This document shows, in pieces, positions 48,365 to 64,000 of a stretch of DNA of 64,000 bases (its first letter is position 1; each line of letters starts with the position of its first letter). The notes under the pieces were generated by a model. The model searched no databases. It saw nothing but the letters and a program-made list of their open reading frames with translations, and had not been told where the DNA came from. Position numbers and translations under genes: made by a program. This DNA comes from an uncultured Anaerolineae bacterium (GTDB lineage: Bacteria; Chloroflexota; Anaerolineae; Anaerolineales; Villigracilaceae). The stretch covers positions 1 through 64,000 of the forward strand of contig CAIJPN010000069.1 in the NCBI GenBank assembly GCA_903822545.1, read 5' to 3'.

Positions 48365-49693
48365 TCAGCGGGCAGGATTATGCAGGATTTGGTCAAATAG
48401 GGCACCGCCAAACATCCATAGCGCGCCCAGACCCAGCAGCGCACCCAGCAGGTTGACCAGCCAGCCGATAAAGGGTAAAGCTGCCAGGGCGGCAAAGATG
48501 ATTACACCAAAAAGCATCGGCCAGAATTTGTGTTCGGCCAGGTCAGGCTGCAGACGCGACAAGATCATTTTCCCACCCAAAAAGCTGATTACAAGCTGCG
48601 CAATGAAAGAACTGGACAGGATAAAGCCAAAGATCAGAACAAACATCCCCAAAATACCCATCCAGGTCACCACACCGGTGATACTACCCAGGGTGAGCAC
48701 TCCAAAGATGATGGCAGCGATCACGGTGACGGCAACCAGTACCAGGATAGCAAAGAAGAATGCCCCCCAGGCTACCACACCCCAGCCAAGCGCGGGCAGC
48801 GGAGACTGGCGCAAATGGTCAGAAGCGCCCTTGATAAAAGCCGGGAAGAGCCAGACCAGCAGCAGCCCAAACAGTGCCAGGGTCACCATGCGCCGCAGGG
48901 CATCAAAGATGCCGGTTATGATCTGCTCAGAGAGGGTGGGCGTTTTGACAATATCTTCGGGTGCAACCACCGGCTCGATGCGCTGGATTCCGCCAACCAC
49001 TACGCCGGCAGGCAGGCTGAGTTCTTTGCTGCTGGTATAAACCAGCTTGCCGCCAACCTGAGATTCAGGATTAATCGTCAGGCCGGGTGGAACTGTCGGC
49101 ATAGAAATTGTTACTTCTGGAAGATAAAGGGACGGGTGGGGAGAAGTGCTATCGCTGTCGCCAACTTCGACATTCATGTTACCACCCACGTTGCCGCGCA
49201 ATTCCACACTTCCAGAAAAAACTTGCAGGTTGCGGCCAATTTCACCGGCCAGCAGCGACTGCCCGCCCATGAAAAGCACATCCTTCTGATTAACGGCGCC
49301 CTTGCGCATCTCCAGGCTGGCGCCAAAGGCGATCACATCCCCGTCGATTTTGGCATTTTCACCCAGCAGCAATGCCCCACCAGCGATACGAACACTGCCG
49401 CTGACGGCACCGTTAACGATAATGGTTTGCCCGGCAGCCATCACATCCCCGTCGACGGTGCCGTTAATGGTCAAGGTGTTGCCACTGGCAACCAGGTCGC
49501 CATTAACTGTGCCGTTCATGGTGAAAGTTCGCGCGCCAATGTAGAGATCATCATTAATAACTTCATCTGCGGCAATGATGACGGTATCGCCGCCGCGGCC
49601 ATCGAAAGCGCGCGCGGGGCTGGCAAGCGTCAGGCTGAGAACAGCCAGCAGCAAAAGACTGACAAAAATTTGAGCTTTGGATTTTGAAAACAT
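48365..49693 (-). CDS. Exported bactofilin-like beta-helix domain with C-terminal membrane helices (442 aa)
   Basis: An N-terminal signal peptide (1-30, ending SPARA) is followed by a polymer-forming, bactofilin-like right-handed beta-helix of short repeats (about 35-170: GARTFTMNGTVNGDLVASG, TINGTVDGDVMAAGQTI, VNGAVSGSVRIAGGAL). A Pro-rich linker follows, then four or so transmembrane helices (about 270-435). Classical bactofilins are cytoplasmic and lack membrane helices, so here the beta-helix is probably outside and anchored by the C-terminal bundle. ATG 49693 follows AGGAG with good spacing; an in-frame codon at 49717 lies upstream of this site. Confidence 0.85.
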   Translation of the reverse strand: MFSKSKAQIFVSLLLLAVLSLTLASPARAFDGRGGDTVIIAADEVINDDLYIGARTFTMNGTVNGDLVASGNTLTINGTVDGDVMAAGQTIIVNGAVSGSVRIAGGALLLGENAKIDGDVIAFGASLEMRKGAVNQKDVLFMGGQSLLAGEIGRNLQVFSGSVELRGNVGGNMNVEVGDSDSTSPHPSLYLPEVTISMPTVPPGLTINPESQVGGKLVYTSSKELSLPAGVVVGGIQRIEPVVAPEDIVKTPTLSEQIITGIFDALRRMVTLALFGLLLVWLFPAFIKGASDHLRQSPLPALGWGVVAWGAFFFAILVLVAVTVIAAIIFGVLTLGSITGVVTWMGILGMFVLIFGFILSSSFIAQLVISFLGGKMILSRLQPDLAEHKFWPMLFGVIIFAALAALPFIGWLVNLLGALLGLGALWMFGGALFDQILHNPAR

Positions 49694-49925
49694 AAAATTC
49701 TCCTGCGAGATGAACATTTGGATAAATAAAGTATACGTGATTATGCCGCAAAAGTTTTAGAAACCACCCCAAACCCGGTGAGCATAATTCGCTCGAGGTT
49801 CTTTGCATATTCAAATCGGCAACCTTTGCCATAAAATTCCGTAAGTACCCGAGTACACAAACGGTAAAAATACCAGTCAGTTATGCTATATTTGTTATTG
49901 AAACTGTTTGGAGCGACCATCCGCA

Positions 49926-51884
49926 ATGCCGACCAATCCCAGCACCACCCAAACATCCCTGCAAAACCACCCCACCTTACGTTGGGGGCTGGTGGCTGCC
50001 TGGGTTGCCACCGTAATCTACATCCTGGTGGTAATGGGCTCTGCTATCTACCCACAGATCCACGCCGCAATCAACACAAACCTGATCCAGGCCATTTTGA
50101 ACATCCCGGCCCTGCTCAAACTGGGGTTCGATTACGGCTCCGATCTTCTCCTCGTGGTTGGTTTTTCGCTACTCGGCGCGCTACTGGTGGCGCGCCGCTC
50201 CGATGACTGGTTTGCCATCTTCACATCGACTTTCCTGATCACCTTCGGATGGCGCATCACCAACATCGCCAACACCGTGGCAGCCCAGCCTGGCTACGAA
50301 GCCGCCGCCGGGCTGATCCTGGCGATGGGAGATATTGGCATCGTCTTCTTCCCACTGCTCTTCCCGGATGGGAAATTTTCACCACGCTGGCTGAAATTTA
50401 TCGCCCCAATGCTGGCCCTCATTTTACTGGGCATCTACACCCTGCCATTTGCGCCCTTTTTTTGGGGTAAACTCAACCAGCAAACCTACCTGACCATCAT
50501 CGGCGCCTGCTACACCGTCAGCATCCTGTCCAGCATTTACCGCTACCGTCACACCAGCACCAGCCTGGCGCAAAAACGCCAGATCCGCTGGACCTTTCTC
50601 GGGACGATGGGACCACTGCTGTGGTTCATCTTGTTCATGGTGCTGCCGATCTTCATCCCGGCCTTCAGCGGGGAAACGCTCATCGCCACCATCTTTACAG
50701 TTTTATCGCGGATTTTGGGCATCTTCCTGTTCCTGATGCTGCCACTATGCGTGATGATCTCCATCGTTCGCAACAAGCTATTCGACATCGACCTGATCAT
50801 CAACCGCTCACTGGTCTATGGCATCATGACCATCGCCCTGGGGCTGGCTTTCGCGCTCATGCTGGGATTCATCTCATTCATCTTCAAAAATTTCCAGCAG
50901 AGCGACCAATCACTGCTGGTGGCAACCATCTGCTCAGTGGCCGCCGGAGCACTCTTCCAGCCGGCGCGCAAAAAGTTGCAGCGCTTTGTAGACCGGGTCT
51001 TCTACCGCATCCACATCGACTACCAGAAAACCCCGGTCAAAATACCCACATCCTCAGAACCGGCAGTCTCAGGCACCACCCTGTCATCCTATCGCGGGCT
51101 GAAGCTGATTGGGCGCGGCGGCATGGCCGAAGTTTACAGCGGCACCAGCCCCACCAATGGCAGGATGGTAGCCATCAAAGTGCTGCCCGCCGCCCTGGCC
51201 AGCGACGAGCAATTCCGCAAACGCTTCACACGCGAGGCCCAAATCATCGCAAGGCTGGAACACCCCAACATTGTGCGCGTGCTCGATTTCGGACACGAAG
51301 AAGGCTCTTACTACATTGTCATGGAATACCTCCCCGGGCCTGACCTAAGCGCCCTGCTCAAAGAGCGGAAACAACTGCCCTTACCCGAAACCATCAGTGT
51401 GCTGCGCGGCATAGCCAGCGCACTCGATTACGCTCACCAGCAGGGCTTGGTTCACCGCGACATCAAGCCATCCAATGTCATGCTCGATGGCTCACAAGAA
51501 CCCATGCGCGCCGTGCTGACCGATTTCGGCATCGCCAAAATCACCGATGCCCACACACGCATCACAGCCACCGGCGTGCTAGGCACCTTCGATTACATCG
51601 CCCCCGAACAGATCCAGGCATCTGCAGACGTGGATGGCCGTGCGGATGTATACTCACTGGGCGTGATGACCTACCAACTCCTGACCGGGCGCCTGCCCTT
51701 TGAGCGTCCCAACCCCGGAGCTTTGCTACTGGCCCATCTCACCGCCCCCGCGCCTGATGCCCGCGACTTGCTACCTGACCTGCCCCGTCACGCTTCATAC
51801 GCCCTACAGCGCGCCATGTCCAAAAAACCGGCAGACCGCTATGCCAGTGCCAGCGAACTGCTCGAGGCGCTCGAAAGCGCCTGA
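49926..51884 (+). CDS. Ser/Thr protein kinase with an N-terminal multi-pass membrane domain (652 aa)
   Basis: Residues about 20-330 contain some eight transmembrane helices (WGLVAAWVATVIYILVVMGS onward) with the layout of membrane sensor N-domains otherwise seen on histidine kinases. A short linker leads to a PknB-type kinase (about 388-650): the Gly loop LIGRGGMAEVYSG, the Lys in MVAIKVLP, HRDIKPSNVML, DFG in LTDFGIAK, and APE in YIAPEQI, all intact. This is the reverse of most bacterial PknB proteins, where the kinase is N-terminal. Start choice is uncertain (ATG 49926 or TTG 49908). It is the first gene of the signalling island and transcribed in its direction. Confidence 0.88.
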   Translation: MPTNPSTTQTSLQNHPTLRWGLVAAWVATVIYILVVMGSAIYPQIHAAINTNLIQAILNIPALLKLGFDYGSDLLLVVGFSLLGALLVARRSDDWFAIFTSTFLITFGWRITNIANTVAAQPGYEAAAGLILAMGDIGIVFFPLLFPDGKFSPRWLKFIAPMLALILLGIYTLPFAPFFWGKLNQQTYLTIIGACYTVSILSSIYRYRHTSTSLAQKRQIRWTFLGTMGPLLWFILFMVLPIFIPAFSGETLIATIFTVLSRILGIFLFLMLPLCVMISIVRNKLFDIDLIINRSLVYGIMTIALGLAFALMLGFISFIFKNFQQSDQSLLVATICSVAAGALFQPARKKLQRFVDRVFYRIHIDYQKTPVKIPTSSEPAVSGTTLSSYRGLKLIGRGGMAEVYSGTSPTNGRMVAIKVLPAALASDEQFRKRFTREAQIIARLEHPNIVRVLDFGHEEGSYYIVMEYLPGPDLSALLKERKQLPLPETISVLRGIASALDYAHQQGLVHRDIKPSNVMLDGSQEPMRAVLTDFGIAKITDAHTRITATGVLGTFDYIAPEQIQASADVDGRADVYSLGVMTYQLLTGRLPFERPNPGALLLAHLTAPAPDARDLLPDLPRHASYALQRAMSKKPADRYASASELLEALESA

Positions 51885-52022: not shown

Positions 52023-52059
52023 ACGCACTTAAAATAAGCGCATGGAGGTCAGCGATTAT

Positions 52060-52455
52060 ATGTTCAATGATTTCAATGATGGTGAAAGTCGCGGCACAAT
52101 TTTGTACGTGGAAGACAACCCAGACAACCGCAACTTACTGCGGCGAATTTTGATGGCCGAAGGGTTCGAAATCACCCTGGCAGAAACTGCCGATCGGGCC
52201 TTCAAAATTCTCGAATCGTTCCATCCCGACATCATCCTGACAGATATCAATATGCCCGATATGGATGGATATACCCTGACTGCAAAAATCCGGGCAATGC
52301 CAAACATGACTGGCATCCCAATCGTGGCGCTCACCGCAAATGTAATGAAAGGTGACAAAGAAAAGTCATTGGAAGCCGGATGTGATGGCTACATTCAGAA
52401 ACCAATCGATATCGACACAATCGCCGCCCAGGTAGAAAAGTTCATCAAGAGATAA
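52060..52455 (+). CDS. Stand-alone response regulator receiver, CheY-like (131 aa)
   Basis: A single receiver domain. The acidic pocket is Glu18-Asp19 (YVEDNPDN), the phosphoacceptor Asp62 (ILTDINMPDMDGY), the Thr in VALTANV and the Lys in GYIQKPID. No output domain. The sequence is of the DivK type, which signals by protein contact. ATG 52060 is chosen because GGAGG lies at 52044-52048; an in-frame ATG at 52042 has no ribosome-binding site. The second receiver gene follows after 5 nt. Confidence 0.92.
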   Translation: MFNDFNDGESRGTILYVEDNPDNRNLLRRILMAEGFEITLAETADRAFKILESFHPDIILTDINMPDMDGYTLTAKIRAMPNMTGIPIVALTANVMKGDKEKSLEAGCDGYIQKPIDIDTIAAQVEKFIKR

Positions 52456-52460
52456 CCATC

Positions 52461-52928
52461 ATGAACGATCAGGATACTGCACGACCCACTGGATCATCCG
52501 ATGGCCGCCGAGGCGGCATCCCCAAGGATGCAACTGTCCTTGTTGTTGAAGACAATGTTTCCAACTTTGTGCTGATCGCCCGCATGTTGGGATTTCTCAA
52601 CATTCACTGCGAGTGGAAAACATCCGGCTATGAAGTGGTAGAGTACGCTGACACCCTGCCCCGTCTGGATTTGATATTGATGGACATTCGCTTGCCCTAT
52701 GAAGATGGATATGGCGCGATGAAAAAAATCCGGGCATCTGATCGGCTGAAAAACGTGCCAATCGTGGCGGTGACAGCCGAGGCCAGCCAGGAGCAAATGG
52801 ACAAGGCGCGCACATCAGGCTTCGATGGCTTCCTGGGAAAACCCCTCGACCCGGATAAATTCCCAGACCAAATCCGCCGGATATTGAGCGGAGAACCAGT
52901 CTGGGAGATCCCATACGAAGAGAGATAG
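52461..52928 (+). CDS. Stand-alone response regulator receiver (155 aa)
   Basis: A second single receiver domain with about 22 extra N-terminal residues (Gly/Arg/Asp-rich). It has the acidic pocket VVEDN, Asp75 (LILMDIRLPYEDGY), the Thr in VAVTAEA and the Lys in FLGKPLDPDKF. The tail after the receiver (EPVWEIPYEER) is short. It is cotranscribed with the preceding receiver gene and ends at an intrinsic terminator before the GAF operon. The partner kinase is not adjacent; the two receivers may be linked through a phosphotransfer from an orphan kinase elsewhere. Confidence 0.92.
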   Translation: MNDQDTARPTGSSDGRRGGIPKDATVLVVEDNVSNFVLIARMLGFLNIHCEWKTSGYEVVEYADTLPRLDLILMDIRLPYEDGYGAMKKIRASDRLKNVPIVAVTAEASQEQMDKARTSGFDGFLGKPLDPDKFPDQIRRILSGEPVWEIPYEER

Positions 52929-52996: not shown

Positions 52997-55192
52997 ATGA
53001 GCGATTTGCAGGCAGCTACCACAGATCCCCAAACCATTCTAAAAATGCACCAGGCCAATTATGGCATCTTCCAGGCGCGCACAGAGCGGGAGGTGATTAA
53101 CGCCATTGGAGAGGCCTTGCGGGCGTCCCCATTTGCTTGTGTATACTACAACATCAATGATAGTGGCCTGGAACTTGTTCACAATATCAACCCACACAAT
53201 CGGGGGAAAAAACTGGATGCGCCCTCGCAAATTGCGCTTTCAGCGGCGGGTGTGGCTCAATATTTTTCTGAAGAACTGGTTATTGCGCAAACGACCGAGG
53301 CCAGATTCCCCGACGAACTGGTTAAGATATTTTTTGATGGGCAGTGTGAGCAGATAGCTGTCATTCCAATCATCCAGGATGTTTTAACGCTGGGTGTGCT
53401 GGCGCTTGGCGCGCCGGCCGAAGTAACCATCAACAACGAAAACATTGATCCGCTGATCCGGTTGGCGAGTATCATTCCGGTGGCGCTGAACAATGTCAAA
53501 GCAGCGCGCGCCACTCAACAACGCTTACGCGAACTGGAGGCGATTTCGGAAACCAGCCAGGGCATCACCTCGGCCAGCGACCTGAACGCTATCTTCGAGG
53601 TGGTACACCGGCAGGTGCGCGCCACCATTGGCGAAGTCAGTCTGTCGATTGCACTCTTTCGACGCGAAACCCAGACCATCGAAACGCCTTATCACTATGA
53701 AAACGGCAAAATTTCAAAGATTGAGCCGGTGCTAATTGGCGAGGGGCTGGTATCAATCTTGTTGCGCACGCGCCAGCCCTTGATGCTGGTCGAAGACACC
53801 GAACGACGCAGCCGCGCCCTGGGAGCAAAGTATATCGGTAACCCGGCAAAATCCTGGCTGGGTTGCCCGCTCATTGCGGGTGGTGAAGCAATTGGAGCCA
53901 TCGTGATCCAGGATTCGGAGCAGGAGCAACGCTTCACCCAGGATGATTTGCGCTTCATTATTGCCCTTTCGGCCCAGGTTTCCGGGGCAATTGATAATGT
54001 GCGCTTGCTGGATGAAACCCGGCGCCGCGCACTGCAACTCCAAACGGTAGCTGAAATCTCGCGTGAAGTTTCCAGTTCTTTGATTGTAGACAACTTGCTG
54101 CGTGAAGCAGTCAACCTGGTTCGTGAACGATTCAATTTTTACCACGCATCCATTTTTTTGATGGATGCGAATGGTGAGTATGCCGTTATCCGCGAATCTA
54201 CGGGAAATGCCGGGTTGCAATTGAAGCGCGCAGGGCATAAGCTGGCGGTAGGCTCAAAATCCATCGTAGGATATGTCAGCAAAAACCGCGAGCCGCTGAT
54301 CGTGAACGAAACCAACAAAGACCCCAATTATTACGCCAACCCACTGCTGCCCGATACGCGAGCCGAGGCTGCGCTACCGCTAGTGGTGGCCGACAGGTTG
54401 CTGGGCGTGCTGGATGTGCAAAGCACCCAGCCTTATGTTTTCACGGATGAGAATGTCAAAATCCTGCAAATCCTGATCGATCAGTTGGCAGTAGCAGTGG
54501 TCAATTCAGAGTTGTTTGCAGAAGCACAGGAACGCCTGTCGCAGCACCGCTTGTTGCACCACGTGACTACCGCCGCAGCTTCCAGCACCACCATCGAAGA
54601 AGCGCTCAATAGTGCGGTGCAAGGTTTACAGGTGACGATGGGGGGTGACCAGATTGCGATTTTGCTGGCAGATAAGGAACAAAAAATCCTGGAAGTGAAA
54701 TCTTCTGTTGGGTATCCAAATGAAGAGTCTGCGCGGCTGAGAATTCCATTTGGGGTGGGTATTACGGGTTGGGTGGCAATCCGTCGCATTTCACAACGCG
54801 TGGATGATATCAGCAAAGATTCACGCTATATCTCGGTTAACCCGAAAGTACGCTCAGAGCTGGCAATCCCGTTAATTTACCGGAACGAGGTTTTGGGCGT
54901 TCTAAATATTGAAAGCCCGCGTATTGCCGCTTATTCTGAAAATGACGAGGAGATGCTGGGAACGCTGGCCGGAAGCCTGGCTGCCATCATCTCGCACTCG
55001 CGCCTGCTGGAACAGTTCCGCACCCAGGTAGAGCGTGAACGCCAACTGTATGAGATCACCAACCGCATCCGCCGCACGACCAGCCCTGAAAAAATACTGG
55101 CCATTACTGCAGAAGAGATCAGCCGGACTCTCAATACTACCCGCACCCGTGTCAAAATCGCGCTGGAAGCACAAGATGAACCAAAACGTTAA
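52997..55192 (+). CDS. Cytoplasmic multi-GAF protein, member 1 of the GAF operon (731 aa)
   Basis: Four GAF domains in series (about 15-165, 175-345, 355-510, 520-680). The third has the motif shared with the other members (NPLLPDTRAEAALPL, then LLGVLDVQST). It is soluble throughout. The last ~45 residues (from RERQLYEITNRIRRTTSPEKIL) look like the first helix and strand of another GAF that stops short. This tail is repeated at the ends of the four following proteins. There is no kinase, cyclase, MCP or DNA-binding output. GAF domains bind small molecules or haem-like ligands and dimerise. ATG 52997 is chosen over TTG 52970, which is in the terminator tail. The next gene starts 12 nt after the stop. 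Confidence 0.85.
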   Translation: MSDLQAATTDPQTILKMHQANYGIFQARTEREVINAIGEALRASPFACVYYNINDSGLELVHNINPHNRGKKLDAPSQIALSAAGVAQYFSEELVIAQTTEARFPDELVKIFFDGQCEQIAVIPIIQDVLTLGVLALGAPAEVTINNENIDPLIRLASIIPVALNNVKAARATQQRLRELEAISETSQGITSASDLNAIFEVVHRQVRATIGEVSLSIALFRRETQTIETPYHYENGKISKIEPVLIGEGLVSILLRTRQPLMLVEDTERRSRALGAKYIGNPAKSWLGCPLIAGGEAIGAIVIQDSEQEQRFTQDDLRFIIALSAQVSGAIDNVRLLDETRRRALQLQTVAEISREVSSSLIVDNLLREAVNLVRERFNFYHASIFLMDANGEYAVIRESTGNAGLQLKRAGHKLAVGSKSIVGYVSKNREPLIVNETNKDPNYYANPLLPDTRAEAALPLVVADRLLGVLDVQSTQPYVFTDENVKILQILIDQLAVAVVNSELFAEAQERLSQHRLLHHVTTAAASSTTIEEALNSAVQGLQVTMGGDQIAILLADKEQKILEVKSSVGYPNEESARLRIPFGVGITGWVAIRRISQRVDDISKDSRYISVNPKVRSELAIPLIYRNEVLGVLNIESPRIAAYSENDEEMLGTLAGSLAAIISHSRLLEQFRTQVERERQLYEITNRIRRTTSPEKILAITAEEISRTLNTTRTRVKIALEAQDEPKR

Positions 55193-55204
55193 CCAGGAGC
55201 CGAA

Positions 55205-56776
55205 ATGTATAAAAGGCTTTTCAGTGATGCACCAACAGAAAATACGGAACGCGACCGCCGGTTGATTTTAGGAATCTTACTGATAACGAGCATTATCTTA
55301 TTTGCGCTGCCAACCTTTGGCCTGATCTCTGTTGAAGATCGACTGCCAGTGCTGGTTGCGGCGATAATCTCAACCGTTACAATGCTCATCAGCTACAGGG
55401 GAAATACCAATTTTGGACGCATCATCATCCCGTTATTATTAAACGGCGCGATCGGGTATTTTGTATATAATGGCGGTTTACGCGACATCTCTTTATTAGG
55501 GATTGCGGGTGTCATCACCATTTCCAGCATCCTGATGGGGCAAACCGGAACGCTGTTTTCAGGAATCTCCATGACATGCGTTATTATCGCAACCGGGCTT
55601 GGAGAAGTGAGTGGGCAACACACAACCTATCTCGGCCAGTATACGCAACGATCAGATATTGCGAGCCTGGCAATCCTGGTTATGGGTACAGCTTTGTTGC
55701 AATACCTTCTGCTGAACCGGTTAAACCAGGCCGTAAAAAACGCCAAGGAAAGCCTGTTCAGTCAAACGGATGCTAACCGGGAGCTGCGTACCATGCAATT
55801 GGAACTGGAGCAGCGTGTGGCAGAGCGGACAGCGCAATTGCGGGCATCGAATGCGGTGGGGCAGGTTGCCAGTTCAATTTTGGACCCAGATGAATTAATT
55901 AACAAAGTTGTCAATCTCATTACCGAACAGTTTGAATATTATTACGCGGCAATCTTTATTATTGAAGATAACAGCAGATGGGCGGTGTTGCGTGATGCCA
56001 CAGGTTCAGCGGGGCAGGTGCTCAAGTCGCGGCGACACCGGCTACAGATTGGCAGCGGCAGCATGGTTGGGATGGCGATCAACACCAAAGAAGCCCGTGT
56101 TGCCCTGGATGTAGGTGAATCTGCTCAACGGTTTAACAACCCGCTGCTGCCCAATACGCGTTCAGAAATCGCCCTGCCGTTGATCGTTGGCGAGCGAGTG
56201 ATCGGCGCGCTGGATGTGCAATCGGTACGGGAAGCAGATTTTAAGCAGGAAGATATTGATACTTTGCAGAGTATGGCCAACCAGGTGGCAATTGCTATGG
56301 AAAATGCGCGCCTGTTTTCTCAAATGGACGAAGCCTTGCGGGAAATCAGCCGCAGCAACCGTGATACCCTGGTATCGGCCTGGACGGACAGGAGCCGCGC
56401 CAATACGCTGGAGCATGTTGTCAACCTGCCGCCAACATCCAGCAACCCGGAATTCAAAGAAATCGAACTGCCTTTAACCTTGCGCGAACACAGCATCGGT
56501 CACATCAATATCCAAACCGAGAATGATTGGACGAGTGAAGATCAATCTTGGGCCGAATCGCTGGCAACCCAGGTTGCTGTCTCAATCGAAAATGCGCGTC
56601 TGTTCGAAGAAAGCCAGCAAGCAGCCCTACGCGAACACATTTCGGCGGCCATCATCCAGAAAATCTGGTCGGCTGGGAGTATCGATGCCATTATGCAAAC
56701 AACCATTCGGGAACTCAGCCGGTCATTGGGCGCTTCTGAAGCATCGATTGAACTCAAGCTTAAGGCGGACGAGTGA
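55205..56776 (+). CDS. Membrane GAF sensor, member 2 of the GAF operon (523 aa)
   Basis: Five or six transmembrane helices in 1-175 (LILGILLITSIILFALPTFG onward) with no extracellular domain of size. A coiled-coil linker of phosphorelay-protein style follows (LRTMQLELEQRVAERTAQL), then a full GAF (about 218-370, with NNPLLPNTRSEIALPL and VIGALDVQS). A shorter second GAF-like unit covers about 375-480, and the C-terminal tail runs from LREHISAAIIQKIW. No catalytic output. The start has AGGAG (55195-55199). The stop overlaps the start of the next gene by one base (TGATG). Confidence 0.85.
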   Translation: MYKRLFSDAPTENTERDRRLILGILLITSIILFALPTFGLISVEDRLPVLVAAIISTVTMLISYRGNTNFGRIIIPLLLNGAIGYFVYNGGLRDISLLGIAGVITISSILMGQTGTLFSGISMTCVIIATGLGEVSGQHTTYLGQYTQRSDIASLAILVMGTALLQYLLLNRLNQAVKNAKESLFSQTDANRELRTMQLELEQRVAERTAQLRASNAVGQVASSILDPDELINKVVNLITEQFEYYYAAIFIIEDNSRWAVLRDATGSAGQVLKSRRHRLQIGSGSMVGMAINTKEARVALDVGESAQRFNNPLLPNTRSEIALPLIVGERVIGALDVQSVREADFKQEDIDTLQSMANQVAIAMENARLFSQMDEALREISRSNRDTLVSAWTDRSRANTLEHVVNLPPTSSNPEFKEIELPLTLREHSIGHINIQTENDWTSEDQSWAESLATQVAVSIENARLFEESQQAALREHISAAIIQKIWSAGSIDAIMQTTIRELSRSLGASEASIELKLKADE

Positions 56777-58455
56777 TGAATACCAAGTCAACGATTTCTA
56801 CAAGTGAGAAACCATCGGGATTTTTTAGCCAGCTAAGCTGGCTAACCGCCCCACATTCATCTATAAAAGACTCTGCTAGCCGCCAAAAGGCTGAACTGTC
56901 TGCCCGGTTTACACTGGTTATGTTCTTGCTCAGTGTTATCGGGTATCTCGCTGCCATCCCGAGCAACGGCCTGGAGGAATCTTTCCTGAATTTTGGCGTT
57001 AGCATGGTAATGGGCCTGATTGCGTATGTAATGAGTCGATCACCATACTATACACTTGGGGCATTCATCCTTTCATTGAGTTTCCTCATCAGCCCATTCG
57101 TGATCGCAGTCAATACGACAACAACTCGCGATACGCAGGCGCTGATTATTGAATTCCACGCCTTGGGGTTGATCATCGCCAGCGCGCTAACAAACTCCTG
57201 GGCAACCTGGCTGCTTACCGGCCTATCTGTGGCGGGCGTCTTTTCGATGACATTCATTGGGCTGCCGCTTCCCACCAATATCGGCGGGTTAACTGGCATC
57301 CTGACCACCATGGGGCTGGTGCTGGTGATCTTGAATAACTTCAGGAACAAAGTGGAATATACCCGTCTGGCCGAGTTGGAAATTGTCAACCGGGAACTAT
57401 CAAGCATCCGCGACTCGCTGGAGATGCGCATCCAGGAACGCACCGAAGAAATCAACCGGCGTTCAATTCAATTGGAAGCATCTGCCATGGTGGCCCGCAC
57501 CGCAGCGGAATTCCGCAACCTGGAGGATGTTATCAACCACGTTGTGGATCAAATCACCGACCGGTTTGGATACTACCATGCTGGGGTTTTCCTGGCTGAA
57601 AGTTCCCGGCAATTTGTCACACTCCAGGCAGCCTCTTCGCCTGGCGGAAAAAGAATGGTTGAACGTGGTCACAGGCTGGAAGTGGGCCGCCAGGGTATCG
57701 TGGGCTACGCCGCCTACCAGAAAAAGCCGCGCATTGCCCAGGACGTGGGCGCTGATGCCGTCTTTTTCAACAACCCATACCTGCCTGAAACCCATTCTGA
57801 AATTGCACTGCCCCTGGTGGTGCAAAACCGCCTGATCGGCGTGCTGGATATTCAATCCAAAGATATCAACGCTTTTGGGCAGGAAGATGTTTACACCCTA
57901 CAAACAATGGCAGACCAGGTAGCCCTGGCAATTGAAAACGCCCGCCTGCTGGCAGAGAGCCAATCGGCTTTGGATGAATTGCAGAGGATCACATCGCGTG
58001 GCACGCTGATGGCCTGGAAAGAGAAGTTCTCGCACGAAGAACGCTCGTATACTTACAATGCTTTCGGCCTTGCCAAGAGCAATAAAGACATCAGCAAAGA
58101 ACCCGCATCAGAACACAATCTAAAAATACCAATTCGCTTGCGCGGCTACCAGGTGGGCACCTTACTGCTCAAACGCAAGGAAGCCGAAGAACAATGGAGC
58201 AGCAAAGAACAGGAATTGGCCGAAAAAGTTGCCGACCAGGTGGCCCTGGCAATCGACAATGCCCGCCTGCTGGATGATTCCCAGCGCCGCGCCAAACGCG
58301 AAGAAACCATCAACGAATTCACGAGCCGGTTTAACCGCTCACTGAATGTAGATACCCTGCTGCAAAACGCAGCCCGCGAACTGCACAGTCTCCCGCAGGT
58401 CATTGAAGTATCTGTGCTGCTGAAACCATCCGAAATCACCCAGGAAGTCAAATAA
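56776..58455 (+). CDS. Membrane GAF sensor, member 3 of the GAF operon (559 aa)
   Basis: The soluble N terminus (1-40) is followed by about six transmembrane helices (45-195) and a coiled-coil linker (NRELSSIRDSLEMRIQERT). A full GAF lies at about 235-390 (VFFNNPYLPETHSEIALPL, LIGVLDIQSK), then a linker with a Trp (GTLMAWKEKFS), a half-length GAF unit (about 440-505) and the shared tail from KREETINEFTSRF. There is no output domain. ATG 56776 overlaps the previous TGA by one base, a coupled start; GTG 56773 is an alternative. The architecture is parallel to members 2, 4 and 5. Confidence 0.85.
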   Translation: MNTKSTISTSEKPSGFFSQLSWLTAPHSSIKDSASRQKAELSARFTLVMFLLSVIGYLAAIPSNGLEESFLNFGVSMVMGLIAYVMSRSPYYTLGAFILSLSFLISPFVIAVNTTTTRDTQALIIEFHALGLIIASALTNSWATWLLTGLSVAGVFSMTFIGLPLPTNIGGLTGILTTMGLVLVILNNFRNKVEYTRLAELEIVNRELSSIRDSLEMRIQERTEEINRRSIQLEASAMVARTAAEFRNLEDVINHVVDQITDRFGYYHAGVFLAESSRQFVTLQAASSPGGKRMVERGHRLEVGRQGIVGYAAYQKKPRIAQDVGADAVFFNNPYLPETHSEIALPLVVQNRLIGVLDIQSKDINAFGQEDVYTLQTMADQVALAIENARLLAESQSALDELQRITSRGTLMAWKEKFSHEERSYTYNAFGLAKSNKDISKEPASEHNLKIPIRLRGYQVGTLLLKRKEAEEQWSSKEQELAEKVADQVALAIDNARLLDDSQRRAKREETINEFTSRFNRSLNVDTLLQNAARELHSLPQVIEVSVLLKPSEITQEVK

Positions 58456-58477
58456 ACCGCATGGTGGCTGGTAAACG

Positions 58478-61240
58478 ATGAAAAAGTTCTTCCTGTTATT
58501 CACCCCGCCTGACGAACAAAAAATCGCTGCTGAAGAAAAGCGCGATCTCTATAGCGCGCTCTATTCCACCCTGCTGTATTCCCCGCTGACCATGGGTTTC
58601 AACCTGGCAGGGCACGCCATTATTTTTGTGCTGGCATATTTCCAAATGCTGGAAACCACCACCAGCGAATTGTTGATTTTCCCGGTCATCCTGCTGACAA
58701 TCTCGATCCTGCAATTTCCCCTGATTAATTTGCTAAACGAGACCCGCCTGACAAGGGTGGCAATCGCCTTCACCATTATCAGCTCGTTAGGGATGGCATC
58801 ACAGGTATTCTTCTGGGCCAACATCCCCCTTTTCATCACCCTGTTCAGCCTGCTCACCCCCCTGGCTTTTGTGTTGATGCGCGGCCCGTCAGTGCCGATG
58901 AAAGTTTTCATCATAATCTACAGCGCAGCATTAAGCTGGGCCCTTTACCAGGTTGACGCACTGCTGACCCTGGAACGCATACACCTGGCATCACTCACGG
59001 CCATGGCGGGAATGACCGTCTACGCCACAGTGCTGCTGACACTGATCATCCTGATCATCTCCACCACTGCCACACCCTTCAAAACAATTGTGGCACGACT
59101 GGTAACGACTTTTGCATTTATCACAACCCTTTCTGCGGTCACAACCCTGTTAATCGGTGCACTGACCAGCTTTTACTACGATCGCCAAAACACGTTCGAG
59201 CAAATCCAAACAATCACCAGTTTAAAAAATGAACAAATCCTGACCTTGCTGGGCGATCTTGAATCGGACGCAAGCAATGCGCTGAATGATACCAACCTGG
59301 CACCGCGCATCCTCTACCTGCTACGCAACCGTCCCGGCTCTGCGCTCTACCAATACAACTACGACCTGATCAAAGCCTATCTGACAAAAATCCAGAACCA
59401 GTCGGAGCGATATGATGAATTGCTGTTACTAGATGGCACCGGCAAAGTAATCCTATCCACCCTCCGCCAAAATGAAAACCAGAATTTCTCGCAGCAACCC
59501 TTTTTCCAGGGCGCGATGGAAAATCAGAGTTATGTAGTGGAAAGCAGTTATCCAGGGACAGTTGGGAACAGCATCGTTTTTGTGCGCTCCATAACACGTG
59601 AAGGCTTGATGCTGGGCGTACTGGCTGCTCGAGGAAACTTCAACACTGTTACGCGCATAGTGGAAACCAAAACCGATCCCAACCAGACGCTGGAAACGTA
59701 CCTGGTCAGCAACCGGCTGGCCCCCTTGACCAAAACCCTTTACCCGGTAGATGAAGTTCGCACAGAAGCAACCTCCCAAGTTATCACCTTCCGCTACAAT
59801 CATGGCCAGGGGATTTATGAAAATTACCAGGCAGACTCGGTACTGGGGTATTACGTTTGGATCCCACAGCTTGAAGCGGCCCTGATCACAGAAATTTCAC
59901 AGGCTGAAGTGGTGCAAGATACCATCCAGCTACTGCTAACCAATCTTTCGGTCGGGTTTTTCACCACGCTAATGGCTTTCGCCATTGTATTGGTTACATC
60001 CCGCTCCATCAGCGCCCCGGTAGTGGCTCTGGCCGAAAAAGCCAAAGCCCTGGCTGGTGGTAACTTCGCGGTGCGAATTGCCATCGCCAACCAGGATGAA
60101 ATCGGCAGCATGGCACAGGCATTCAACACAATGGCCGAGGAACTCCAAAACCTGGTGCAAAACCTGGAACAGAAGGTGGATGAACGCACCAGGGATATCC
60201 AAAAACAGGCCAGCCGCCTGCGCCTGGCATCAGAAGTAGCACGAGACGCAACCACATCAGACAACCTCGACTCACTGCTTAACCGCTCAGCTCAGATTTT
60301 ACAAGAACGTTTTGGGTTCTACTACACGGGCATCTTCCTGATCGACAGCACCCGGGAATATGCAGTTCTGCGCGCCTCACCCACCGAAGCCGGGAAAGCG
60401 CTGCTCGAACGCAGCTATCGCATCCCGATCGGCAAAGCCGGCATCATCAGCACAGTTGCAAATACGGGCGAGTCGCGTATCGCACTCGACACAGACAAAG
60501 ATATTATCTTTGTACAGAACCCCCTGCTGCCCAATACACGCTCCGAAATTTCCACCCCGCTAAAAGTCAACAACGTAGTCATCGGCGTGCTGGATGTGCA
60601 AAGCGACCAACCTTCAGCTTTTTCTCAGGAAGATATTTCGGTACTGCAAATTGTGGCAGACCAGCTAGCCCTGGCAATCCAACGCGCCCAACTGGTGGAA
60701 CAACTCGCCAGCAACCTGAGCGAAATTGAACGCACCTACCAGCAGCTGACGACAACATCATGGGAAACTGTTGCCAGCGCCCGCTCACAGCCAGGATACC
60801 ACTACGATGGGCTGAGCATCACCCCGCTGCGCAGCTATCCACCTGAAAGCCGCCAGGTTTTACAGCAAGGGAAACCAGTCATCGTGGAAAGCAAGGGGGA
60901 TGAACTCCAAAAAAACAAAGTGCTGGCAATGCCGATTAAATTACGCGAACAGGTGATCGGGGTGCTGACCATCAAATTTGCATCGGAACGAGTAGCCCCA
61001 GACACCATAGCCCTGATTGAAGAAACTGCCAACCGGCTGGGCCTGGCCCTAGAGAACGCCCGCCTTTACGCTGAGACTCAAAAACGAGCCGAGCGCGACC
61101 GCCTGCTGGGAGACATATCCACCCGCATCGGCGCATCCTTCAACATCGATAACATCTTGCGCTATACGGCCGAAGAGTTTGGAAAGATTTTGCCCGAAGC
61201 CGAAGTTGTGATTGAGCTGGAAAAACATAAGGAAGGCTAA
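58478..61240 (+). CDS. Cache-HAMP-GAF receptor, member 4 of the GAF operon (920 aa)
   Basis: About seven transmembrane helices (25-225) precede an extracytoplasmic dCache-like domain (about 230-480: RYDELLLLDGTGKVILST, FFQGAMENQSYVVES, LGYYVWIPQLEAALITEI), another membrane helix (about 485-508) and a HAMP domain (510-562, SISAPVVALAEKAKALAGG). A coiled coil follows, then a full GAF (about 605-750, FVQNPLLPNTRSEI), a half-length GAF with a Trp/Tyr linker (TTSWETVASARSQPGYHYDG) and the shared tail (RDRLLGDISTRIGASFNI). It is built like a chemoreceptor but has no methyl-accepting signalling domain. It starts 22 nt after the previous gene. Confidence 0.85.
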   Translation: MKKFFLLFTPPDEQKIAAEEKRDLYSALYSTLLYSPLTMGFNLAGHAIIFVLAYFQMLETTTSELLIFPVILLTISILQFPLINLLNETRLTRVAIAFTIISSLGMASQVFFWANIPLFITLFSLLTPLAFVLMRGPSVPMKVFIIIYSAALSWALYQVDALLTLERIHLASLTAMAGMTVYATVLLTLIILIISTTATPFKTIVARLVTTFAFITTLSAVTTLLIGALTSFYYDRQNTFEQIQTITSLKNEQILTLLGDLESDASNALNDTNLAPRILYLLRNRPGSALYQYNYDLIKAYLTKIQNQSERYDELLLLDGTGKVILSTLRQNENQNFSQQPFFQGAMENQSYVVESSYPGTVGNSIVFVRSITREGLMLGVLAARGNFNTVTRIVETKTDPNQTLETYLVSNRLAPLTKTLYPVDEVRTEATSQVITFRYNHGQGIYENYQADSVLGYYVWIPQLEAALITEISQAEVVQDTIQLLLTNLSVGFFTTLMAFAIVLVTSRSISAPVVALAEKAKALAGGNFAVRIAIANQDEIGSMAQAFNTMAEELQNLVQNLEQKVDERTRDIQKQASRLRLASEVARDATTSDNLDSLLNRSAQILQERFGFYYTGIFLIDSTREYAVLRASPTEAGKALLERSYRIPIGKAGIISTVANTGESRIALDTDKDIIFVQNPLLPNTRSEISTPLKVNNVVIGVLDVQSDQPSAFSQEDISVLQIVADQLALAIQRAQLVEQLASNLSEIERTYQQLTTTSWETVASARSQPGYHYDGLSITPLRSYPPESRQVLQQGKPVIVESKGDELQKNKVLAMPIKLREQVIGVLTIKFASERVAPDTIALIEETANRLGLALENARLYAETQKRAERDRLLGDISTRIGASFNIDNILRYTAEEFGKILPEAEVVIELEKHKEG

Positions 61241-61244
61241 GAGC

Positions 61245-64000
61245 ATGGCCTTTGATAAGATACCATTCCTGAAACACCCCAACACATCGGAGGCCCAAAG
61301 CGCCTCCTATTTCACTCTGGCCGGAACAATCAGCTCATGGATTGGCGCAGCCAGCTTTTTCATCGCGGGTGCTCAAACTTCAACCTGGCAATTCATCGCG
61401 ATGGGCAGCACGGGGAGTATCCTGGGGCTGGTTTTGCTTATCGCAAACATCTTAAACAACACCGGGCGCACCCGGTTAGCCACCTGGGTATCGATCATCG
61501 CTTCGGCATTATGTTTCACAATATTTGCAATGCTGACCAGCAACATGAGTGTGGTGCTGGCTTTCCTGATGGTTACGCTGGCCGTTAATGTTTCCATACA
61601 GATATTCCACGATTCAACAGAAAGCACTCTGGGGGTTATCGCCAGTATTCTCTGCTCGATATTGATTGTGCTCACAGGCAGTGCCGACTTTGGAATTGAA
61701 CGCATCGAAATGGCGGCCTGGTTGCAAGAAGTATTCATCACGATCTGCGGCCTGGTAGGAATGCTGCTCTCGATCAACACACTGCGGCGCTTCGAATTTA
61801 GCTCGTTGCGCTCCCAAATTGTGGCAGCTTTCCTGATCATGTCCATCATCCCAATCATTCTCATCCAGGCTTCGCAATACATCAACATCCAAAACTCGCT
61901 ACGCGACCAGGGCAACCAGGATCTGAAAGAGAATGCCTGGAACATCGCCAACGGGGTGGAACGGGCGCTCACAGATATCCAACGTGATGTGAGCACAACC
62001 GCAAAACTACCCGTGCTCAAACAGCTCCTTACCGGCAGCGATGATGTGGTGCCAAATGCCCTGGCCACCCTCGACGCTATTCGCTCACAGAACAAATACA
62101 TCATCTCTTTTGGCGTGCTGGATATCAACGGGCTGAACATCCTCGATACACAGCTCAACCTGAAAGGCGCAAACGAGAGTTTTTCTTCTTACTTCCTGGC
62201 CAGCAGCACCAGCAGCCAGGCTTACATTACCGATTGCTATTACGACACTATTGGAGACAAATCGTACCTGTTTATCAGCTTGCCCATCATTGATCTGGAT
62301 GAAAACAGCACCATCGGCATTTTGCGTGCCAAGGTGGATGGTCAGATTCTGCAGGATACCATCGTCAGCCTGGCACCCAGCATCGGGGCAGACCATGCCA
62401 TTATGCTCGTCACCGACCAACAGGTTATCCTGGGACACAGCCTTGATTCCAGCCTGAACTTTAAGACTCTCAGTTTGCTGCGTGACAGCATCGTCAAAAG
62501 CCTGAAGAACAGCAAGCAAATCCCTGAAAATGCAACTCCCGAATCATTGAATATCAACCTGGTGCGCATCGCTGACGCGCTCAAAACACTCAACCAGAAA
62601 CCCTTCTTCGAAACCAATATCATACCCGGACAGCCCATAGATCAGATGGCGACCGGCGTTTGGATGACCGAAAAACCCTGGATGGTGGTGGTGACGCGCG
62701 ATTTGGATGCCATCACCGCACCCATCAATGCCCAGGTGATAAATACCAGCATCATTGTGTTTGTGGTCATCCTGGCAGTCATCGGTGGGGCAAGTATTAC
62801 AGCATCATTCATCACATCGCCCATCAATGAGCTGGTCAGCACCACCAAACTGTTTGGCGAAGGCTCCATCGGGCTGCGCATCCGTTCGAATCGCAAAGAC
62901 GAGATTGGCACGCTGGCAGATACTTTCGACAATACCACCGGGCAGATCGAAAGGCTGCTCACCAGCCTGGAAGACCGGGTGAACGAGCGCACGCGTGAGT
63001 TGACTGATATGAACCAGGGTAATGAAAAACGCGCCCATCAATTGCGGGCAGTGGCCGAAGTTGCCCAAGCTGTCACCACCCTGCAAGACCTGGAAGAGTT
63101 GCTGCCACTCATCTGCGAACGAATCAGTGACACATTCGGGTTCTACCATGTTGGTATTTTCTTGATCGACCAAAGCGGGGTTTTTGCCATTTTGCAGGCT
63201 TCAAACAGCGAGGGTGGACGCAAGATGCTCGAACGGCGACACCGCTTACGGGTTGGACAGGTGGGCATCGTCGGGTATGTGACCAGTACCGGTCATCCAC
63301 GCATCGCCCTGGATGTTGGTGATGATGCCATCTACTTCAATAACCCAGACCTGCCACTGACCCGCTCTGAAATGGCGCTGCCGCTAAAAATTGGCGAAAA
63401 AGTGATTGGCGCATTGGATGTGCAAAGCACCGAAGCCGCCGCGTTTACCGAAAATGACATTAATATTTTGAGCCTGCTCTCAGACCAGATCAGCGTGGCG
63501 ATCCAAAATGCCCAATTGTTTGATGAAACCCGCCAGGCGCTGGCCGAAACTCGCGCGCTGTACTCGGCATCCGTCAAAGAAGGCTGGAAGATTATCACCC
63601 AGGCCAGGGCCAGCGGGTATCGCTATGCAAATGGCAAGGTGGATGCCGCTTTTGGTAAATTGCCCAGCCCCAGCTTCAGCGGTGAGACTCTCGAAATCCC
63701 GGTGACAAGCCGCGGCGAGACATTTGGCCGTATAAAAATACGCATGCCAGCCAACCTGGCAGAATCCACCAGCGAAGAAGAACTCCAACTTTATGAGTCA
63801 ATCGCCGAAAGGCTGGCGCTGGCATTGGATAATGCCCGACTGGTGGAAGAATCGCAACGCCGCGCCGATTTGGAACGCGCCATTGCTCGCATGTCTGGTG
63901 AAATCGGCGCATCGACCAATATAGACGGAATTCTCCAGACTACGGTGGAACAAATCGGTCAATTGGTGAAAAATGCCGAAGTCATCATCCAGATTAGCCC
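61245..64000 (+). CDS. Cache-HAMP-GAF receptor, member 5 of the GAF operon, cut by the window edge (918+ aa)
   Basis: The reading frame from ATG 61245 stays open to the end of the window. Several transmembrane helices lie in 1-210, then a Cache-like extracytoplasmic domain (about 215-485, with YIISFGVLDINGLNILDTQ), a membrane helix (about 503-525) and HAMP (SPINELVSTTKLFGEGSIG). The coiled coil SLEDRVNERTRELTDMNQG leads to a full GAF (about 595-750, YFNNPDLPLTRSEMALPL), a half GAF with a Trp/Tyr linker (KEGWKIITQARASGYRYANG) and the shared tail (RADLERAIARMSGEIGASTNI), which is nearly complete at 64000. GGAAGG is at 61231-61236, 4 nt after the previous stop region, so it is cotranscribed. Confidence 0.85.
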   Translation, partial: MAFDKIPFLKHPNTSEAQSASYFTLAGTISSWIGAASFFIAGAQTSTWQFIAMGSTGSILGLVLLIANILNNTGRTRLATWVSIIASALCFTIFAMLTSNMSVVLAFLMVTLAVNVSIQIFHDSTESTLGVIASILCSILIVLTGSADFGIERIEMAAWLQEVFITICGLVGMLLSINTLRRFEFSSLRSQIVAAFLIMSIIPIILIQASQYINIQNSLRDQGNQDLKENAWNIANGVERALTDIQRDVSTTAKLPVLKQLLTGSDDVVPNALATLDAIRSQNKYIISFGVLDINGLNILDTQLNLKGANESFSSYFLASSTSSQAYITDCYYDTIGDKSYLFISLPIIDLDENSTIGILRAKVDGQILQDTIVSLAPSIGADHAIMLVTDQQVILGHSLDSSLNFKTLSLLRDSIVKSLKNSKQIPENATPESLNINLVRIADALKTLNQKPFFETNIIPGQPIDQMATGVWMTEKPWMVVVTRDLDAITAPINAQVINTSIIVFVVILAVIGGASITASFITSPINELVSTTKLFGEGSIGLRIRSNRKDEIGTLADTFDNTTGQIERLLTSLEDRVNERTRELTDMNQGNEKRAHQLRAVAEVAQAVTTLQDLEELLPLICERISDTFGFYHVGIFLIDQSGVFAILQASNSEGGRKMLERRHRLRVGQVGIVGYVTSTGHPRIALDVGDDAIYFNNPDLPLTRSEMALPLKIGEKVIGALDVQSTEAAAFTENDINILSLLSDQISVAIQNAQLFDETRQALAETRALYSASVKEGWKIITQARASGYRYANGKVDAAFGKLPSPSFSGETLEIPVTSRGETFGRIKIRMPANLAESTSEEELQLYESIAERLALALDNARLVEESQRRADLERAIARMSGEIGASTNIDGILQTTVEQIGQLVKNAEVIIQIS

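Follow-up and report, generated by a model that had tools for sequence, protein, structure and literature searches.

A conserved Chloroflexota operon of receptors ending in half a GAF domain, proposed as a multi-receptor, one-kinase sensory complex with ParA positioning

An operon of an uncultured Anaerolineae bacterium, running from position 52042 to about 96630 of contig C69 (190 kb), appears to encode a sensory complex in which many receptors dock through a common C-terminal tail, share a single hybrid histidine kinase and are positioned by a ParA ATPase. The probability of this explanation as a whole is put at about 0.6. The window, that is, the whole stretch of DNA analysed, is the first 64 kb of the contig, and the operon runs on past position 64000 to 96630 with intergenic gaps of at most 68 nt. 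Fifteen of its proteins terminate in the shared tail (about 14 receptors, plus g18). Also encoded are a ParA ATPase, two solitary binding lipoproteins, a PAS/GAF hybrid kinase that carries two receivers, and an enzyme of threonine-synthase-like type with a receiver (REC) fused to it. The gene order is REC, REC, g01 to g06, an NMT1-type lipoprotein, g08 to g13, an ABC_sub_bind lipoprotein, g15, g16, ParA, g18, g19 and g20.

Gene content and conserved layout

The genes within the window, their tails and the principal later genes are as follows.

52042..52455, + strand: stand-alone receiver (REC), first of a conserved REC-REC pair (Pfam PF00072, E 8e-29)
52461..52928, + strand: stand-alone receiver (REC), second of the pair (Pfam PF00072, E 4.8e-19)
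52997..55192, + strand: g01, soluble multi-GAF receptor with half-GAF tail (GAF_2, E 2e-56, three stretches)
55205..56776, + strand: g02, multi-TM GAF receptor with tail (ORF, Pfam GAF)
56776..58455, + strand: g03, multi-TM GAF receptor with tail (ORF, Pfam GAF, AF2 model)
58478..61240, + strand: g04, TM-HAMP-GAF receptor with tail (HAMP E 8e-15, GAF E 3e-23)
61245..64022, + strand, crossing the window edge at 64000: g05, TM-HAMP-GAF receptor with tail (ORF, Pfam)
55010..55174, + strand: half-GAF tail of g01 (tail profile E 2.4e-17)
56606..56770, + strand: half-GAF tail of g02 (tail profile E 3.6e-19)
58273..58434, + strand: half-GAF tail of g03, holding the invariant Glu (A3 position 326; tail profile E 5.2e-20)
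61073..61234, + strand: half-GAF tail of g04 (tail profile E 3.4e-24)
63846..64010, + strand, crossing the window edge at 64000: half-GAF tail of g05 (tail profile E 6e-22)
C69 65777-66739: lone NMT1-type binding lipoprotein
C69 79336-80331: lone ABC_sub_bind lipoprotein
C69 85025-85822: g17, ParA ATPase (AAA_31 E 1.7e-49, deviant Walker A KGGVAKT)
C69 85785-89033: g18, five GAFs and tail
C69 89030-94972: g19, PAS and GAF repeats, HisKA, HATPase_c and two receivers
C69 94975-96630 (L014:12975-14630): g20, threonine-synthase-like PALP domain and receiver

The five consecutive reading frames g01 to g05 and their spacings of 12, -1, 22 and 4 nt, described in an earlier note made from the window alone, were verified, and Pfam GAF domains were found in each. 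The NNPxLPxTRSExALPL-type core on which that note relied is readable in all five but also occurs in other GAFs of the genome. Three of the four GAFs that it assigned to g01 are significant in Pfam, the N-terminal fourth being too divergent; in g04 and g05 its HAMP assignment was verified, but Pfam at E 0.01 gave no Cache match. Clear dCache domains are present in later operon genes (Pfam). Overall, receptor inputs vary between soluble GAF, multi-TM, 7TM and Cache/HAMP types, and the receptors carry a full GAF, mostly also a mini-GAF, ahead of the tail. The statement that no output is recognisable is true inside the window only, because the window edge cuts the operon. When the operon was followed past 64000, it continued to a hybrid histidine kinase, g19 (HisKA E 3e-21, HATPase_c E 5.5e-29, two receivers E 4e-38), and to the REC-fused enzyme.

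The lone lipoproteins (NMT1-like and ABC_sub_bind), which come without permease or ATPase, adjoin Cache or HAMP receptors here and in some relatives; they are probably ligand presenters for the receptors. Two genes precede the operon. One (window 48365-49717, - strand) encodes a secreted or membrane protein that has hydrophobic repeats of bactofilin-like type (GTVNGDLVASGNTLTINGTVDGDV...) and TM segments towards its C terminus; the other, just ahead of the operon (window 49908-51884), encodes a TM protein whose C-terminal domain is a Ser/Thr kinase (PF00069). Just downstream (C69 97658-101699, - strand), after an EamA-like transporter, is a divergent two-component trio of response regulator, REC-kinase and kinase, which recurs at the equivalent place in several relatives.

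Ten clusters of the same family contain a REC-REC pair (8/10), at least seven tail receptors, ParA, the hybrid kinase and the PALP-REC enzyme, in that order; in three of them the ParA ORF was masked by overlapping spurious ORFs and was then recovered. The present genome departs from the family order in having g18 between ParA and the kinase. Scanning the kinase N-terminus against 84,980 species genomes gave 80 loci, labelled Anaerolineales, Anaerolineae or Chloroflexi except for two with other labels. ParA lies directly upstream of the kinase in 77 of these 80, tails lie upstream in all except two that contig ends cut short, and downstream in none, and the PALP enzyme follows the kinase in most. 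As judged from gene order, the layout is kept across Anaerolineales. The earlier note had looked for partners of the receptors among the upstream genes. Here the REC pair stood, as it recurs in relatives, but no counterpart of the Ser/Thr kinase turned up ahead of the other clusters, and it was dropped as a conserved partner. The best fit is that the tail's partner is primarily the operon's own hybrid histidine kinase rather than the upstream Ser/Thr kinase.

A second cluster occurs in the same genome at C2 23123-36427 (L114, L115) and comprises a lone lipoprotein (C2 35456-36427), three tail receptors, a 629-aa kinase, a PALP-REC enzyme (C2 23517-25157) and a REC. Its kinase bears a KRLKKLF peptide (MAPPDQFQKRLKKLF) and a GAF without a head similar to those described below. 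ParA was not found in the 40 kb fetched around this cluster, which may use the ParA of the main operon in trans. In most clusters the gene right after the hybrid kinase is that of the threonine-synthase-like enzyme with its C-terminal receiver; a metabolic enzyme of this kind is a possible two-component output.

Identity and conservation of the tail

The common C-terminal segment seen in the five window genes is confirmed in all of them and comprises roughly 56 residues. Chance is ruled out by the profile E-values, because the 15 operon copies score E <=2.4e-17 on the own genome and nothing outside the two clusters is better than 2e-6 (profile of 15 tails); the three copies of the second cluster on C2 lie between 4e-15 and 6e-11. 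Searching with the tail alone across genomes, as the earlier note had proposed, revealed a segment that is conserved across a class and almost exclusively C-terminal. Of 41 relatives' genomes 39 contain it, with as many as 15 copies in one genome within the same family. At class level, with E 1e-8 as the threshold, 83 of 249 genomes have it, and so do 30 of 301 sampled from the phylum, most of these from the own family, order or class. The DNA fetched contained 513 C-terminal tails with a median of 59 bits, all terminating within 60 residues of the same point, and four internal matches above 30 bits.

Profile-profile comparison aligned the tail with the heads of the first GAF (GAF_a) of the same proteins over 66 columns (E 3e-5), and hhalign with 94 sequences gave 53 columns in register (E 2e-7). 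The tail model also matches the heads of complete GAFs along its whole length. The two tail segments tested gave no Pfam GAF match. Sliding-window hhalign (94 sequences) gave no full-length match to any other segment, and an ordinary coiled coil was ruled out, as the only full-length match is at the GAF_a head. The AF2 model of g03 (pLDDT 90) contains a full GAF, followed by a mini-GAF of four strands and, last, the tail; a structural comparison that addressed chiefly the first GAF gave this domain a best PDB match of Z 22. In this model the tail shows the same kinked pair of helices as that GAF, its beta1 has no strand partner, and the chain stops after beta1, short of a complete GAF fold with a full sheet. 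The profile comparisons identify the tail as the start of a GAF domain (signalling or entry helix, alpha1 and beta1), cut there but specialised.

Signs of specialisation are seen in the residues that the tails retain. Across 94 diverse receptors, tail position E326 is kept in 94, A297 in 92 and E300 in 91, and a Glu in the tail is the sole invariant residue of the 350-residue C-terminal part. The GAF_a position aligned to E326 is mostly Leu or Val in the same proteins. The suspicion that the tail is only an ordinary GAF N-terminal helix is thus half borne out: it is a GAF head, but its conservation far exceeds that of an ordinary GAF start. It may also be asked whether ancestral sensor kinases that shed their C-terminal GAF and kinase domains left the tail behind as an inert stump. 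Homology to the GAF start and the stop after beta1 would suit such an origin, but a stump would drift, whereas 513 copies end within 60 residues of the same point with an invariant Glu and an Ala and a Glu conserved above 90%. The invariant Glu (94/94) rules out a drifting remnant, and the inert-stump explanation is considered very improbable. As for function, the docking or assembly module for several receptors proposed in the earlier note is the best fit to the class-wide conservation, C-terminal position and own invariant polar residues of the tail.

Signalling helix (S-helix) linkers are a described family (PMC1592074) that resembles the tail in that a helix of about 40 residues emerges from a sensor domain. 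The S-helix joins two domains, whereas the tail ends the protein and runs on into GAF alpha1 and beta1, and the count of 513 C-terminal copies to four strong internal ones differs from that of a helical linker between two signalling domains. Three loci (L194, L157, L181) encode chains with two tails each, in the order tail, linker, C-terminal GAF half, second tail; these may be gene fusions by deletion or natural composite GAFs. A search for chains joining a tail to a headless GAF also found a tail-like head inside a complete GAF in one genome (G096). As natural joins of tail and half GAF, these four cases are suggestive only.

Kinase N-termini, adaptor g18 and the ParA partner peptide

ParA/MinD positioning ATPases are defined by the deviant Walker A motif KGGxxK[ST] (PMC9178275), which in g17 reads KGGVAKT. 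In the family, the gene after ParA begins M-P/S-K-K-x-K-I-x-K-R-L-D-K-L-F, followed by a Pro-rich stretch. AF2 models of the kinase or adaptor N-terminus show a basic helix (4-19), a disordered region (20-72) and then a confident hairpin and helix; averaged over 79 kinase N-termini, residues 1 to 15 have a net charge of +3.9. The basic KRLDKLF-type peptide with its Pro-rich linker is present in all 19 tail-found clusters with a sequenced gene after ParA. Over all loci it is present in 95 of 97 ORFs after ParA (the two misses are LDKFF variants), although that count derives mostly from loci which the search with the kinase N-terminus had supplied, and only the 19 are independent of it. Elsewhere the peptide occurs in 3 of the remaining 507 tail receptors and in 6 of 2135 further ORFs. 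The host of the peptide varies, being the kinase in most Anaerolineales, adaptor g18 in the own genome, and a transmembrane tail receptor in four relatives (G084, G116, G159 and G049; such as MESFRRSLEELFSDF plus a Pro-rich stretch).

Activators of ParA/MinD ATPases are unrelated proteins with a common short basic N-terminal extension and an unstructured stretch (PMC7993993, PMC10241942). The N-termini found here resemble those of ParB/Spo0J, SopB, MinE, PomX, McdB and TlpT, in which a basic peptide and then disorder likewise precede unrelated architectures; the difference is that the carrier here is a histidine kinase, GAF adaptor or transmembrane receptor. Because known activators share such an N-terminus, the predicted activation of the operon's ParA by the peptide is well supported by analogy. 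ParA and its partner peptide, which lay beyond the view of the earlier note, are the strongest evidence for a positioned array.

Behind peptide and linker, the family kinases and g18 have a beta hairpin and a long helix (alpha5), that is, the closing portion of a GAF whose head is missing. The helix of this headless GAF carries invariant Gln112 and Gln116 and Lys/Arg111, none of which is found in the receptors' mini-GAF helix, similar though that is in other respects. In the Anaerolineales kinases examined, the peptide is followed by a GAF without head; in G031 and G475, from other families of the order, the headless piece lies behind an inserted PAS domain. The own g19 has neither peptide nor headless GAF, both being on g18, the two ends of which are kept apart by rigid GAF helices. 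In four class-level relatives (G084, G116, G292, G243) tails are present and the large kinase has no N-terminal headless GAF.

Proposed mechanism, alternatives and comparison with known systems

In the mechanism proposed here, about 14 receptors with different inputs, helped by the two lone lipoproteins, would feed one complex. The receptors would dock via the half-GAF tail on the hybrid histidine kinase or on g18, which in the own genome would stand in for the kinase N-terminus; the chances of this tail-mediated binding seem about even. Receptor tail and headless GAF of the partner (beta hairpin and alpha5) would complete one GAF between two proteins, an arrangement that we propose tentatively for the Anaerolineales members. 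Split-GAF complementation is downgraded as a universal mechanism: because the kinases of G084, G116, G292 and G243 lack an N-terminal headless GAF, either the composite GAF is not the general docking mode or docking in these clusters makes use of internal GAFs. The pooled receptor signal would set how phosphate flows from the kinase: to the two receivers within it, to the separate REC pair and to the receiver on the threonine-synthase-like enzyme; flow to the latter two is rather probable. ParA, activated by the basic N-terminal peptide of kinase or adaptor, would position or segregate the assembly, which is the likeliest of these steps.

Two further explanations place the docking elsewhere or dispense with assembly. 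Tails may mainly bind each other as homotypic or heterotypic dimers or oligomers, forming mixed receptor patches which the kinase joins via its own GAFs, without split-GAF completion. Tail-tail binding accords with the common occurrence of dimeric coiled coils among GAF entry helices, with the independent conservation of the tail and with its persistence in the four class-level relatives just named. It leaves unexplained, however, the headless GAF with invariant Gln and Lys in kinase N-termini of several Anaerolineales families, as well as the unpaired beta1, unless beta1 pairs between tails, and we regard it as a minority possibility. It is a good deal less plausible that each receptor has its own partner (stand-alone receivers or other kinases) in an operon that is co-regulated without assembly, with ParA positioning the kinase only or being unrelated. 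This view draws on the abundance of GAF receptors in other parts of the genome (150 GAF hits). Against it stand the one common tail on receptors with unrelated inputs, the order of receptors, ParA, kinase and enzyme fixed across Anaerolineales, and the ParA-partner peptide on kinase, adaptor or receptor, as expected if any member tethers the whole. The single complex of docked receptors, shared kinase and ParA remains the preferred explanation.

This complex may be compared with GAF-containing hybrid histidine kinases, as g19 and its homologues have the order PAS/GAF-HisKA-HATPase-REC-REC. Here, however, most sensing has moved to a dozen separate receptors, and the Anaerolineales homologues examined begin with a headless GAF. 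GacS with RetS and LadS is a kinase network with extra sensors in trans, and in both systems several sensors tune one hybrid kinase; RetS and LadS bear kinase or receiver domains, whereas the receptors here have one common tail and no transmitter. The operon makes it testable how such transmitter-less receptors reach a kinase.

Chemoreceptor arrays, which rest on MCP, CheA and CheW, are the textbook case of many receptors per kinase. Those of Rhodobacter sphaeroides (PpfA/TlpT) and Vibrio (ParC/ParP) resemble the present system in having many receptors, one kinase and a ParA-family ATPase in the operon. TlpT is the suggested partner of PpfA, which positions the cytoplasmic chemoreceptor cluster of Rhodobacter, and in both systems a member of the assembly bears a basic N-terminal ParA-partner segment (PMC7993993, PMC5706961). 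No significant MCP domain (PF00015) was found in the operon proteins (only a sub-threshold match in g12, E 0.009), the genome-wide hits being on other contigs, and neither CheW nor CheA was found in the operon, C69 having no PF01584 hit. Among the 16 family genomes searched, CheW is present in 1 and MCP in 2; none of the 15 other than the own has PF01584. The own genome, unlike most of these, also carries CheW and MCP genes (contigs C73, C114, C159), and its PF01584 hits are on the same three contigs.

In contrast to the ParA-positioned chemosensory arrays, the receptors here end in half a GAF, the kinase is a PAS/GAF hybrid histidine kinase, and the output would include a receiver-tagged PLP enzyme. 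The system appears to work like such an array, yet is not a member of the MCP/CheA/CheW arrays, because the operon has no MCP signalling domain, CheA or CheW. A literature search, with most subscription journals outside its reach, found no description of a system with these parts; two-component sensing and ParA positioning are both known, and their arrangement is new. Unrelated parts thus appear to do the job of a chemoreceptor array in a mostly uncultured Chloroflexota lineage. A histidine kinase bears a clear candidate for a ParA partner peptide, and a two-component output acting on a PLP-dependent enzyme is suggested. The system may represent an MCP/CheA/CheW-independent class of array, in which receptors with orphan GAF heads meet a kinase with a headless GAF, a domain is completed between proteins, and ParA spreads the assembly by way of a peptide that may sit on any member.
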